From positions 1-53,331 of IMG/VR virus record IMGVR_UViG_3300036828_001070: a DNA stretch of 53,331 nucleotides; one strand, written 5' to 3'. Under the pieces are notes generated by a model. It ran no database searches, had not been told where the DNA came from, and was given only the letters and a program-made list of their open reading frames with translations. Source of the stretch: a virus. Shown here in pieces: positions 39,080 to 45,206 of the stretch. The position numbers were made by a program, and so were the translations under genes. Position 1 is the first letter of the stretch. Every line of letters begins with the position of its first letter.

Positions 39080-39622
39080 TCAAAAAGGGATATCGTCGTC
39101 AGTAATACCCACTTCCTGATACTCTTCATCCTCGTTGACAGGTGGTTTCGCCGGCTTCACTTTACCGCCCGATAGCGCCCTGCCGAACAGTGCATCCAGT
39201 TCGCGGGTCTCCTTCGCATTCAGCGGAGCTACCTCGCGCGCCAGGCCGCTGTTGCTGATGTCCCAGCGTTCGCGCATCTCGCCATCTTGGCCCGGCTCAT
39301 GCTTGCACCACAGATCCACCTGCTGGCCTTTCATGCTGATGTGGTCGGGGTGGGCAGGATCCAGCTGGGAGAACTGCGTTCCCTGAAAGCCCAGCGTCTG
39401 CAGCTTCTCCACGATGAAGGGCACAGTCTTTTCCGTGATGGTCCAAAAAATCGTTCGCTCGTACTGGTAGCGGTGCGGCGCATAGCTGTCGCCGTCAGGA
39501 ATACCCAGAATCTTCACCCGCATCACCAGCTGCTTATTGCCGGTACTGGCCTTGGTCAGGCTATGGGAAACAATCTCCGCCACATGCACGCCAACCTCGT
39601 AGAAGGGTCCGTTGCTAGGCAT
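39080..39622 (-). CDS. ssb: Single-strand DNA-binding protein-like (180 aa)
   Basis: The C-terminus ends TDDDIPF, the acidic tip of SSB proteins that binds partners such as RecO or primase. The body is OB-like with YERTIFWTITEKTVPFIVEK. GGAGG precedes ATG 39622, which overlaps the ATPase stop. Assignment is from the tail, position and size. Confidence 0.7.
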   Translation of the reverse strand: MPSNGPFYEVGVHVAEIVSHSLTKASTGNKQLVMRVKILGIPDGDSYAPHRYQYERTIFWTITEKTVPFIVEKLQTLGFQGTQFSQLDPAHPDHISMKGQQVDLWCKHEPGQDGEMRERWDISNSGLAREVAPLNAKETRELDALFGRALSGGKVKPAKPPVNEDEEYQEVGITDDDIPF

Positions 39623-40544
39623 TGACGGCCTCCATCTTCTCCGGCTCTGCCGCCACTTTGCCTACCGGCTTGCGACTGCTCCTGACCGCCTCGCTAAGGT
39701 TCTTCCAGCCCTCGGCCGCATCCGCGCCCATGTCGATCTCATCCGGCAGCCCCAGCCGGTTCTTGGCGTCGAAGGTGGGATTGTCGGAGTTGGTGTATGC
39801 GATACGCTGACTCACCTCGGCGGCCTTACCCTTTTTGCCTGGCTCCGCGATCTTGGTTCCCTGCTTTACCAGCACTTCGAAGTTGCCGAAGATGATGTTG
39901 TCCAGCCAGCCCTTGGTCAGCCCCCAGGTCTTCTCATGCATCTCCGGCATGTAGCGGTCGTAGTCGGCGCCGCCGGGATTCTTGAAGGTCCGGATGCGGG
40001 TGTGGACCAGGAAAAAGATGGTCATGCCTTTCTCTTTGCGCAACTCATCCAGCGCATTCAAAAACATGCGCCAGTCCGCCAGCGCCACCTCGTAGCCGCG
40101 CTGATAACCCATAAACCCGCGCTCTCCCCAGTCGCCTTCGAAGTCACGCTGACAGACGTACTCGTGCATCATGCGTTCGGCGCCGTTGGCGGTATCGAGT
40201 ATCAGCGTCTTGTAAGGATGATCTTCCGTGCGGAGAAACTTCACCGCCGCCAGCAGATCAGCCCAGGTAGTGGCTTCAGGGAAATGCGGTGTGGGCGGAA
40301 GCTGGCCGGAATCGATAAGCGTTACCAGACCGGTCTCGCCGCGTGTCATCAGGAAGATCGGCGCCCGCGAGTAAGCCAGGATGCTGGTCTTGCCAAAGCC
40401 TACGCCGGCGTGAAAGGCCCAGCGGCTGGGGAGGGCGATGCCCTTGCTGGTGATATCCGCCACGGTGAAGACTTTGGTGGTAACCGTTGTGGCGACTGGT
40501 CCCGACAGCGGTTGCCGGGGAGTACGCATAGTAGTTGGACTCAT
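39615..40544 (-). CDS. RecA-like P-loop ATPase (309 aa)
   Basis: GVGFGKTS (residues 47-54) is a Walker A; KTLILDTANG near 110 is Walker B; TIFFLVHTRIR follows as a sensor-like strand. This AAA_24-type phage ATPase usually partners SSB and an exonuclease in recombination. ATG 40544 with CAGGAG upstream. Ends inside the SSB start. Confidence 0.75.
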   Translation of the reverse strand: MSPTTMRTPRQPLSGPVATTVTTKVFTVADITSKGIALPSRWAFHAGVGFGKTSILAYSRAPIFLMTRGETGLVTLIDSGQLPPTPHFPEATTWADLLAAVKFLRTEDHPYKTLILDTANGAERMMHEYVCQRDFEGDWGERGFMGYQRGYEVALADWRMFLNALDELRKEKGMTIFFLVHTRIRTFKNPGGADYDRYMPEMHEKTWGLTKGWLDNIIFGNFEVLVKQGTKIAEPGKKGKAAEVSQRIAYTNSDNPTFDAKNRLGLPDEIDMGADAAEGWKNLSEAVRSSRKPVGKVAAEPEKMEAVNA

Positions 40545-40584
40545 GGTATTGCTCCTGTGAATTTCAAGTTGTGTGGGAAAATCC

Positions 40585-41172
40585 TTAGTTGACTCCAATC
40601 CGTACAGCCAGAGCTGCACGTTCGACCTCCGTCAAATCCCATGCAGCACAAACGATCCATAAATCGCCCTGCCCCGCACGGCGCAGTAGCATCGGGTCTT
40701 TCGGCGGAACTAAATTCCACTCAGCCTCGAAAAGAATGTGATAGTTTTCGAGGCCACGCTTGGGGCGCAAGGGCAAGGGGATTTGTGGCACGATGGCGCG
40801 TTGCCGCCGCTCCAGCTTGATGCCGGGAAAGCGGTTCAAGGGAAGCTCGATGCGCTGGCGGGTCAGGTGGGAGGAGTGCAACGCCGCCGCTGTCGTGGCG
40901 AAGACGAGGTTGGATTTCGGCCACCTGTTCGTGTCCAGCCAGCAATGCTTGGCATCCGCCCGCACGATAGCCAAGCGGGGGAGACCGTCCACTCCCACTC
41001 CTGCTTTAACGATGCTCTCTAGGGCTTGAATCACGACCTTACCTTGGCTGAGAGCGTGGTACGTGCGCATTACCTCACGATCAATCGGCTGTGACCAGTG
41101 TTGATGCTTGCGATAATCCCGCCATAATTGATTAGCCTTATCGCGCTCTAAAACGATTTGCTGGGTCTCCAT
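40585..41172 (-). CDS. Conserved phage protein (195 aa)
   Basis: LWRDYRKHQHWSQPIDREVM then RTYHALSQGKVVIQALESIV is a pattern I recognise from phage recombination operons without a known role. The C-terminal half has short beta motifs (RQRAIVPQIPLPLRPKRG). It sits between the nuclease and the ATPase. Weak ribosome binding site (GGTGA). Confidence 0.6.
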   Translation of the reverse strand: METQQIVLERDKANQLWRDYRKHQHWSQPIDREVMRTYHALSQGKVVIQALESIVKAGVGVDGLPRLAIVRADAKHCWLDTNRWPKSNLVFATTAAALHSSHLTRQRIELPLNRFPGIKLERRQRAIVPQIPLPLRPKRGLENYHILFEAEWNLVPPKDPMLLRRAGQGDLWIVCAAWDLTEVERAALAVRIGVN

Positions 41173-41185
41173 GATTCACCGTCCC

Positions 41186-42286
41186 TCAAGTCAGAACTGT
41201 TTGCTGTTGCTGTTGCTGTTGCTGTTGTTTCTGCAACGCCAGGAAATACTGCTCCAGCGCATCGTGCATCATGGTCCCAAAAAAAATGCTTTCCTTCTCC
41301 TCTTCGTCCAGCTTCTCTACCCCCAGTTCGTACTGGAAGTAATGCTTCTGCCGGCAAGTCTGAAAGCAGCGCACCCGGCTGTTGGTCAACACATCGGTGC
41401 CGCGCGCGGGAGCGAGTGTCTCCGGATAACTGTTCAGCACCGGCAATTCGTTGTGCACCCAATCTTTCTGGATCCATTTCTCGCTATCGATGGTGTCGTA
41501 GCCGCTGCACACCCCCAGAAACTTGCAGGGTGAGTTATAGGTGAAACAGGCGCCGGAGTTGCGGGGATGGCGTCCGCTGTTGCGCGCCAGCAGGATGTCC
41601 TGTGCATGTCCCCACAGTTCGATCCCGTACTCGCGGATCTCCGCGTCCAGGCGGGGCACCTTGCGCCGCTGGAAGTACCACTCCGACCGCTCAAAGCAGC
41701 AGTCGTAAGCCAGCCGCGCCGCATACATTAACGGAGTCTCACGCTCACTCTCTCTGAATAGCTGCGCCTCGGCATCGTCCAGTTCGAAGTCGTAGTACAT
41801 GCTCGAATCCAGGATGACGGTCGTATCCTTTTTGGAGAGCGCCTTGGGCGAGATTCCCGGCTTGCGAATCACATCCCAGATCCCGCAGTCCACCTTATTG
41901 CCGTTCAGCCACTCCAGCAGCATGTAGTGGCTTACCTGGCCCTCGATGGCCAGTTGCTTCCAGTACGGCGCCAGCGGATCGGTAATGTCCTGCGATGCGG
42001 TCTTGTGATCGAAGACTACTTTGGCTCCGGTAGCAATCTCGGTCGCGCGCACATCGATCTTGCCCGCTTCGATAAAACTCCTGCTCTTGCGTCCGGTCTC
42101 CGGATTAAAAAGATCGCTGGTCAGCACACACTCCACATCATCGATGCGGTAAGGCGCATCCTTCCAGCGATGGTCGTAGCCGATCAGCAGACCGTAGCAC
42201 TTGGCCGCCACCAGGATGTCACCTGCCTCGCCGGCCGTCAGGTACGGTTGCAGTACCTCATGGGCCGCCTGCAGGGCGTAGCTCAC
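41186..42286 (-). CDS. PD-(D/E)XK exonuclease, apparently circularly permuted (366 aa)
   Basis: RecB-family nuclease. GRKSRSFIEAGKIDVR then FDHKTAS (92-98, metal and catalytic D-x-K) lie near the N-terminus, and a Cys-rich ACFTYNSPCKFLGVC Fe-S-like cluster at about 253-268. The domain that normally opens this family, SRVRCFQTCRQKHYF with FFGTMMH, is instead at residues 303-341, at the C-terminus. A poly-Gln run follows. GTG start (GTGA overlap). Probably pairs with the RecA-like ATPase for strand resection. Confidence 0.75.
   Translation of the reverse strand: MSYALQAAHEVLQPYLTAGEAGDILVAAKCYGLLIGYDHRWKDAPYRIDDVECVLTSDLFNPETGRKSRSFIEAGKIDVRATEIATGAKVVFDHKTASQDITDPLAPYWKQLAIEGQVSHYMLLEWLNGNKVDCGIWDVIRKPGISPKALSKKDTTVILDSSMYYDFELDDAEAQLFRESERETPLMYAARLAYDCCFERSEWYFQRRKVPRLDAEIREYGIELWGHAQDILLARNSGRHPRNSGACFTYNSPCKFLGVCSGYDTIDSEKWIQKDWVHNELPVLNSYPETLAPARGTDVLTNSRVRCFQTCRQKHYFQYELGVEKLDEEEKESIFFGTMMHDALEQYFLALQKQQQQQQQQQTVLT
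41203..41234. repeat. GTTGCT/CAGCAA repeat (poly-Gln coding)
   Basis: Tandem trinucleotide tract encoding nine or more Gln at the nuclease C-terminus. Such runs slip during replication, so copy number may vary. Confidence 0.6.
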
Positions 42287-43664: not shown

Positions 43665-43891
43665 GCAACAATCTTTTTCTGAAACGGCCGCTGAGAACGT
43701 ATTGGCTTATTCAAATCCACCGTATGCACGGTACGGGATGCAACCAAGTCATCGATGGTGCTTTGTTTAATCATGGGCGTCTTGCCCATCCTCACGTATT
43801 CAATCTCTTTCCGCCCCATCCAACTGCGGAGTCGCCGGATCGAGATATTCAGTTGCTGGGCAGCTTTCTCTACAGTAAGAAGAGTTACCAT
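43661..43891 (-). CDS. Excisionase / HTH_17-type DNA-binding protein (76 aa)
   Basis: LTVEKAAQQLNISIRRLRSW then MGRKEIEYVRMGKTPMIKQS is a MerR/excisionase-type winged helix. It diverges from the integrase, sharing a 115-nt control region with O6 and a TTGACA-type promoter. GGGAGGAATC lies 6 nt before ATG 43891. Probably the recombination directionality factor. Confidence 0.7.
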   Translation of the reverse strand: MVTLLTVEKAAQQLNISIRRLRSWMGRKEIEYVRMGKTPMIKQSTIDDLVASRTVHTVDLNKPIRSQRPFQKKIVA

Positions 43892-43907
43892 TTTGATTCC
43901 TCCCAGT

Positions 43908-43925
43908 TGTAGCCAGCAGCCTACT
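43908..43925. promoter_or_regulatory. Operator-like palindrome O6
   Basis: TGTAG-CCAGCAGC-CTACT. It overlaps the -10 and +1 of the excisionase promoter. Confidence 0.55.
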
Positions 43926-43956
43926 GCCCCTTCTCTTTGTTGTCAAGAGCCTACAA
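43920..43956 (-). promoter_or_regulatory. Excisionase promoter with operator-like -35
   Basis: Minus-strand TTGTAGGCTCTTGACAACA (43938-43956) contains TTGACA; 17 nt downstream is TAGGCT (weak -10), where O6 begins. Same design as the early promoter at 27154. Confidence 0.5.
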
Positions 43957-44006
43957 TTCCTGCATTCTATATACAGCTTTCGCCATTTGCTCGAAGAGGA
44001 ATTCTT

Positions 44007-45206
44007 ATGTCTGTCTATCTGAAAAAAGGCTCGCTTGTTTACACCATGGACTTTGAATTTCAAGGTCAGCGCATCAAGGAATCAACCGGCGTTCGTACCA
44101 AAGAGATGGCCCGGAAGGTGGAACGTCTCCGTAAATCTGCACTGGAAGAGGGTAGAGCCGGGGTCGTCAAACCCAAATCACCCCAACTCTTCGCCGCAGT
44201 TGCGGAGGAGTATCTGAATCTGGAAAAAGCCCAGCTCACTCCGGACCAGCAAAAGGGTCATGCGAGTACAGTTCGAATCGACATCTTCAACCTCAAACAT
44301 CTTCTCCCCGTCTTCGGCAAAAAACTGCTCTGCGATATCACCCCGATGGATATAGCGAAGTACCAACAGGACCGGATTCGGAAAGGTGCCGCTCCCAAAA
44401 CCATCAATTTGGAGCTTGGCACCTTCCGCTCTATCACGACTGAGGGTGGTCACTGGGCACGGCTCATTCCCAAAATCAAGATGCTGGATGTGGATGATGA
44501 TATCGGCATCAACCTGACCGATAAAGAAATTGCCGCCCTCCTGGAGTCATGCACTCTCTCAGAATCGCGCATCCTGTATCCGTTCATCGTCATGCTGCTG
44601 GAGACCGGTTCGCGGTCAGGCACGGTAAAGAGTCTCACCTGGGATCGCATCGACTTCCAGGGTGGAGGTCTGCGTTTTGGTGACGACAAGACCAAAGCCG
44701 GATCCGGACGCACGGTACCGATCAGCAAACGGGCGATGGTTGCCCTGGAGTTTTGGGCTGAGAATTTCCCCAAACGGAAGCCTCACCATTTTGTCTTTGC
44801 TCGTGAGATCTATCGCCAGCAGAAAAATGGGGGGGAGGGGGTCCCCCCCATTGGCAGCTACACCACCTATCCCGAAGTCCCGATTACGAGTCTGCAGCGA
44901 TCCTGGGAGACGGCATTGGAACGTACTGGCAGGATTCTGACTGGAAACGCAGATGCGGAACCATTGCAATGCCGTTTCCATGATCTCCGGCACACTGCGG
45001 TCTCGCGCATGATCGCCGCTAAAGTGCCTATTCCCATCATTGCGCAGCTTGTAGGCTGGAGCGCTTCCACGATGATTACGATGGCGGCCCGTTATGGTCA
45101 CTACAGCATGGACACCCTGCGCGGAGCGGTAGAAACCATCTCCGGTTCAGGGTCCCCCCCAAATCCCCACCCATTGGCTCCGTCTAGTGGTGCAAGTTTC
45201 TTGTAA
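44007..45206 (+). CDS. int: Tyrosine integrase (399 aa)
   Basis: The Arg of ETGSRSGTVKSL (residue 203), the HDLRHT box (325-330), W351 in place of the second His, and Tyr 363 in ARYGHYS form the tyrosine recombinase site. The N-terminal ~60 residues form the arm-binding domain. ATG 44007 has GAGGAATTCTT upstream. A G-rich palindrome adds a QQKNGGEGVPPIGS insert (271-284), and the C-terminus is encoded by one copy of a 26-bp repeat. It recombines at the adjacent attP. Confidence 0.85.
   Translation: MSVYLKKGSLVYTMDFEFQGQRIKESTGVRTKEMARKVERLRKSALEEGRAGVVKPKSPQLFAAVAEEYLNLEKAQLTPDQQKGHASTVRIDIFNLKHLLPVFGKKLLCDITPMDIAKYQQDRIRKGAAPKTINLELGTFRSITTEGGHWARLIPKIKMLDVDDDIGINLTDKEIAALLESCTLSESRILYPFIVMLLETGSRSGTVKSLTWDRIDFQGGGLRFGDDKTKAGSGRTVPISKRAMVALEFWAENFPKRKPHHFVFAREIYRQQKNGGEGVPPIGSYTTYPEVPITSLQRSWETALERTGRILTGNADAEPLQCRFHDLRHTAVSRMIAAKVPIPIIAQLVGWSASTMITMAARYGHYSMDTLRGAVETISGSGSPPNPHPLAPSSGASFL
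44826..44852. repeat. G-rich palindrome inside the integrase gene
   Basis: AATGGGGGGG (44826-44835) and CCCCCCCATT (44843-44852), perfect 10-bp arms. It adds Gly/Pro codons to the enzyme and contains the same GTCCCCCCCA text as the two direct repeats near attP. Confidence 0.6.
45150..45175. repeat. 26-bp direct repeat, copy 1
   Basis: GGGT, seven C, then AAATCCCCACCCATT. It lies in the integrase 3' end. An exact second copy is at 45394-45419. Confidence 0.75.

Follow-up and report, generated by a model that had tools for sequence, protein, structure and literature searches.

Circularly permuted RecB-like exonucleases of phages and a probable hot spot of circular permutation

A rotated segment order in a phage exonuclease

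The IMG/VR virus record IMGVR_UViG_3300036828_001070, analysed over positions 1 to 53,331 and called the window hereafter, encodes on the minus strand at 41186-42286 a 366-residue RecB/AddB-like PD-(D/E)XK exonuclease whose conserved segments stand in a rotated order. We name these segments N (the S...C and GxxxH motifs), A (GKxD) and B ((D/E)xK and three cysteines). The canonical order is N-A-B, and that of the window protein is A-B-N, with the old C-terminus fused to the old N-terminus, which bears out the proposal of the initial annotation that the gene is a natural circular permutation of a RecB-like nuclease. All three rotations occur among its relatives, and we consider it probable (about 0.7) that the family is a hot spot of circular permutation, in which A-B-N would have arisen three or more times and B-N-A at least once, because a metal cluster that holds the original chain ends together would make rotation nearly neutral.

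The swapped order is evident from several comparisons. PF12705 PDDEXK_1 matches residues 301-360 only (E 5.9e-10, above the cut-off; profile positions 3-62 of 247), so the beginning of the profile is placed at the end of the protein and 60 of the 366 residues are covered. PHROG 1218 (phage exonuclease) matches the protein in two stretches (E 8.1e-20); scanned alone, residues 27-260 align to profile positions 97-329 (E 2.5e-8) and the 70 C-terminal residues to positions 9-65 (E 1.5e-10). An identical split was found at the DNA level, within one open frame. Alignment to phage PD-(D/E)XK homologues, which the initial annotation had put forward as a check, gave the same picture: pairwise BLASTP against the canonical relatives L005, L034, L028 and L026 (L numbers designate collected loci) each time yielded two aligned blocks whose order is exchanged; against L028, 200 shuffled versions of the N segment produced not one high-scoring segment pair. 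Given these independent swapped profile matches, the BLASTP blocks and the shuffle test, the swapped order is confirmed as real and far from chance. The protein does not have the N-A-B order that is canonical for PHROG 1218 and PF12705; it has every segment once, in rotated order and in a single open frame, as expected of a circular permutant. Homology does not depend on order, but the rotation sets the protein apart as a permuted variant rather than an ordinary family member. The permutation also explains why these nucleases give fragment-only matches in order-based domain searches. A search of the PDB by sequence with the window protein gave no match.

The reading frame is uninterrupted and starts with GTG. 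As had been claimed, the stretch of the N segment with the S/C and G-x3-H motifs (residues 303-341) lies C-terminal to the catalytic core (D78, D93-x-K95, Q117) and to cysteines 247, 254 and 260, ahead of a run of nine glutamines. The motif earlier written S-x-R-x-x-C is present in a different spelling, S303-x2-R306-x4-C311, and R306 varies within the family. At the junction, the W..VHxEL tail of canonical proteins leads through a short linker into the old N-terminus (DVLTNSR), and the chain now begins and ends in the loop following the GxxxH helix, so that all segments are single and none is missing. The linker between B and N is held within a narrow range of 25-42 residues, and in A-B-N proteins it measures 25-37 residues. 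No copy of N stands at the N-terminus: the sole N match in the whole window has E 8e-22 and the next best E 0.5. The start is not mis-annotated either, the upstream position being taken, here as in the collinear locus L004, by a short helix-turn-helix (HTH) gene that carries no N segment.

Three segment orders among the relatives

Orders were assigned by running three segment hidden Markov models (HMMs) on all collected loci, and distinct proteins comprised 66 with A-B-N, 61 with N-A-B and 15 with B-N-A order. When 50,697 phage records were queried with the window protein, the sole matches were the exonucleases of Tunturi_1 (XJP11549.1) and Tunturi_2 (XOB77130.1), cultured isolates with lytic cycles (PMC11924767); queries from other permuted groups (L042, L087 and L164) again returned these two alone. 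Both are full-length collinear homologues of the window protein at approximately 57% identity, hence of A-B-N order, and are annotated merely as 'exonuclease'; L004 and others are further collinear homologues. Viral contigs yielded many more relatives in alignment-based scans. Single-sequence scans of the viral and genome collections gave no matches, nor did a plasmid scan or an alignment-based scan of genome contigs, in which bacterial and prophage genomes were not properly covered.

Dozens of phages carry the A-B-N permutation as a conserved feature, and a second, distinct version exists. In B-N-A proteins (L042:6022-7068, L044:193-1239, L053, L054, L055, L057, L058, L059, L061, L063, L065, L186, L189 and L192), the chain starts at the (D/E)xK strand and finishes at the GKxD strand, which places the catalytic motifs at opposite ends; L186 aligns to canonical L005 in two swapped blocks of 49% and 44% identity. 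By the criterion of the initial annotation, its reading would fail if homologues had the permuted order as their norm. Among close homologues A-B-N is indeed shared, yet 61 sampled members and the PHROG and Pfam profiles are N-A-B; A-B-N is therefore not the norm and most likely derived.

Two observations on individual loci may be added here. The exonuclease genes of Tunturi_1 and Tunturi_2 (L001:10001-11038 and L002:9995-11029) are near-identical in their core; at the first 60 bases and in the N segment at the C-terminus they diverge sharply (38-46 of 60 bases), a pattern that suggests mosaic exchange. In addition, the canonically ordered L122:5674-6987 contains one in-frame TAG, the sole split-gene or frameshift case seen, which may reflect a nonsense mutation, readthrough of an amber codon or a recoded phage.

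Conservation, co-evolution and predicted structure

In all 66 A-B-N proteins D78, K95, Q117, Y121, C247, C254, C260, S303, C311, G337 and H341 are invariant, and position 93 holds either D or E throughout. In N-A-B and B-N-A proteins, too, these positions are conserved but for rare exceptions. The catalytic motifs of the RecB/AddB/Cas4-like family (D78, D93/K95, Q117/Y121 and G337/H341) are thus all present, as are the four conserved cysteines of the iron-staple nucleases, one (C311) plus three (C247, C254 and C260). The N and A-B segments evolve together, since their evolutionary distances correlate at 0.82 against a permutation maximum of 0.10.

Structure prediction, another check put forward at the outset, points the same way. 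AlphaFold2, run on the window protein with 60 A-B-N sequences, produced a compact single domain (predicted local distance difference test, pLDDT, 95.5; predicted template modelling score, pTM, 0.91), in which the N segment appears confidently placed (pLDDT 92-98 over residues 301-360). Judged by these confidence scores, the model gives no sign of the other refuting condition named at the outset, that residues 303-341 would not come to lie next to the active site. Foldseek against the PDB returned the RecB-like nucleases MGME1, AddAB and RecE at modest E-values, consistent with a RecB-type fold, and the protein is predicted, at high confidence, to fold into the canonical domain. The B-N-A protein L042 was modelled from 15 sequences with lower scores (pLDDT 85.9, pTM 0.80) and gave weak matches to AddAB.

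How often the order changed

In a quick tree of all 142 proteins the order must have changed five times and in a careful tree of 87 proteins four times, with three changes for A-B-N, which starred branches force, and one for B-N-A; unrooted counts of this kind do not tell gain from loss. A single A-B-N clade occurred in none of 200 bootstrap trees, and imposing one cost 61 log units, with p 0.028 in the approximately unbiased (AU) test. N-A-B is seen in the family profiles and in the most remote members and is therefore most likely the ancestral order.

The clearest case is the A-B-N protein L068:335-1414, which with its near-copy L069:5989-7068 appears from its sequence to represent a recent independent permutation. 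Against canonical L071 it aligns in two exchanged blocks, A-B at 68% and N at 54% identity, and the identity of the pair to the canonical siblings L071 and L026 is 64-68%. Apart from L069, the nearest kin of both the N and the A-B parts of L068 are canonical proteins, and its ATG is preceded by a plausible ribosome site. We also observed that the C-terminal tail of L068 and L069 overlaps the next gene at its ribosome site and ATG; read from its start, that gene is apparently Sak4-like.

Several points weigh against repeated permutation or against parts of the case for it. Rejection of one A-B-N clade by the AU test is moderate, and the three A-B-N changes could equal one gain and two reversions. 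Support for the B-N-A clade is weak (70/44; a single clade in 72% of bootstrap trees), and duplication intermediates of the form N-A-B-N or A-B-N-A were not found. The fold matches in the PDB are likewise weak (best E 5e-3), as an order-dependent aligner would lead one to expect, and do not amount to independent proof.

The most serious competitor is accordingly a single ancient A-B-N permutation followed by reversions to N-A-B, which would agree with counts blind to the direction of change and with an AU value that is not extreme. We regard it as unlikely. The starred branches and the bootstrap trees speak against it. So does L068, whose place in the tree is among canonical proteins (68% identity), and N-A-B is the order of both the outgroup profiles and the most remote members. 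Moreover, any reversion to N-A-B would itself be another permutation.

Markedly less probable is a head-to-tail, domain-swapped oligomer, in which the C-terminal N segment would complete the A-B core of an adjacent subunit. Packing within and between chains is indistinguishable from sequence alone, and a B-N linker of the observed length could permit such an exchange. Against it stand the narrow range in which that length is held and the monomer model, which is confident throughout. It is more improbable still that the gene is a decaying tandem duplicate, its C-terminal segment being what remains of the beginning of a second nuclease now lost and A-B an inactive fragment. Duplication is indeed the expected path to permutation, and the poly-Gln tail indicates a labile end; nevertheless, key residues are invariant in 66 widely differing proteins, N co-evolves with A-B, two lytic isolates carry the A-B-N gene, and no leftover copy of N or A was found beside the permuted genes in ten loci, the window and nine others. 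Finally, metagenome mis-assembly or an error in gene-start annotation can be set aside as an explanation, even though most members come from uncultured contigs, since A-B-N occurs in the complete genomes of the two cultured phages as well as in many independent contigs, in one uninterrupted frame and with no N segment upstream.

Proposed function and origin

We propose that the window protein is a circularly permuted 'iron-staple' exonuclease of the RecB/AddB/Cas4 type, serving a phage recombination/replication module together with a Sak4-like annealase and a single-strand DNA binding protein (SSB), a view we hold with high confidence. Its place in that module makes end resection for single-strand annealing its most likely role: the enzyme would degrade DNA ends and so supply single-stranded DNA to the annealase. 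In AddB and Dna2 the termini are stapled by an iron-sulfur (Fe-S) cluster (PMC4716839). By analogy, C311, now in the C-terminal part, may join C247, C254 and C260 in one metal cluster, the equivalent of the canonical staple between N- and C-terminus; zinc in place of Fe-S is possible at this site (PMC3466216).

As the four cysteines are kept, the most likely account of the permutations is that this cluster already holds the old termini together. With the old ends side by side, a short linker could join them and the chain could open at a surface loop at little cost, so that the change would be nearly neutral; adjacent termini have been argued to favour permutation in another fold (PMC3710099). 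The likely genetic route would be a tandem duplication whose copies fused in frame and then lost their outer parts. Like the exonuclease activity and the Fe-S cluster, this route is inferred.

Relation to known systems

The kind of enzyme is known. PHROG 1218/PF12705 PDDEXK_1 phage exonucleases, called 'Cas4 family' or 'RecB-like' exonucleases in actinophages, share the segments, the catalytic residues and the four cysteines of the window protein, and in viral contigs canonical relatives lie in an operon of the same make-up (exonuclease, Sak4 and SSB); these enzymes are N-A-B, whereas the window protein is A-B-N and is matched by their profiles only in two swapped pieces. The Tunturi_1 and Tunturi_2 exonucleases have both the permuted order and the operon, but not the poly-Gln tail, and their annotation does not note the permutation. 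AddB, Cas4 and Dna2 combine a RecB-type core with one N-terminal and three C-terminal cysteines and Fe-S-stapled termini (PMC3466216, PMC4716839). They differ in their canonical order, in the helicase linkage of AddB and Dna2, and in the position of the lone cysteine, which in the window protein lies C-terminal to the triplet. The BFVD model A0A6J5NSY1, from an uncultured Caudovirales phage and assigned to the PD-(D/E)XK nuclease superfamily, aligns nearly full length to the window model in Foldseek (template modelling scores 0.76/0.81, 22% identity) and therefore probably shares the permuted order. Jumbo-phage adenine methylases (PMC7824862) and Type I S subunits (PMC3874165) are likewise natural circular permutants that act on DNA and occur in more than one order; their folds are unrelated to that of the window nuclease.

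The literature searched contains no report of circular permutation in this nuclease family, though reports for other PD-(D/E)XK families are possible, and both the permuted orders and their recurrence appear to be unreported. As far as is known, a protein family usually shows a single natural circular permutation, seen across a great evolutionary distance. The recurrence is the most interesting part of the finding: here one enzyme family offers all three rotations, with one event recent enough (68% identity) for permuted and unpermuted siblings to be compared directly. Such a comparison makes it possible to test how natural permutations originate, and whether proteins whose termini are joined by a metal staple are predisposed to them.

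Gene neighbourhood and minor features

The exonuclease stands in an operon that constitutes the recombination module (Table 1).

Table 1. Features of the permuted exonuclease gene and its neighbourhood in the window
Feature	Position	Strand	Basis or remark
Circularly permuted (A-B-N) RecB/AddB-like PD-(D/E)XK exonuclease, 366 residues	41186..42286	-	Profile, alignment and segment HMM results
Segment A, residues 28-79, LLxGYxxRW helix to GKxD strand, catalytic D78	42050..42205	-	Segment HMM
Segment B, residues 91-262, D93-x-K95, Q117-x3-Y121, C247, C254, C260	41501..42016	-	Segment HMM
Junction, residues 263-299, canonical C-terminal tail (W..VHxEL) and short linker to canonical N-terminus	41390..41500	-	
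Segment N, residues 300-348, S303, C311, G337-x3-H341; N-terminal in canonical relatives	41243..41389	-	
Poly-Gln run, residues 354-362, TTGCTG hexamer repeat	41201..41227	-	
Sak4-like single-stranded DNA annealing protein (AAA_24)	39615..40619	-	57% identical to Tunturi_2 Sak4; same operon
SSB, DDDIPF tail	39080..39622	-	45% identical to Tunturi_2 SSB
195-residue ORF (open reading frame) between exonuclease and Sak4	40585..41172	-	No family match
Upstream HTH gene without N segment	42283..42867	-	4-base overlap with exonuclease start

The nine-glutamine run is an in-frame microsatellite of 4.5 TTGCTG copies and is specific to this lineage, being absent from L004 and the Tunturi phages. In the upstream gene the conserved part is the C-terminal HTH only (approximately residues 113-194). 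The place of the 195-residue ORF is taken by a 66-residue ORF in the Tunturi phages, and in L004 the Sak4-like gene follows the exonuclease almost directly. A tyrosine integrase is encoded at 43755-45206 of the window, close upstream of the recombination operon, and the window phage is therefore probably temperate; Tunturi_1 and Tunturi_2, which have the same exonuclease order, are by contrast lytic.
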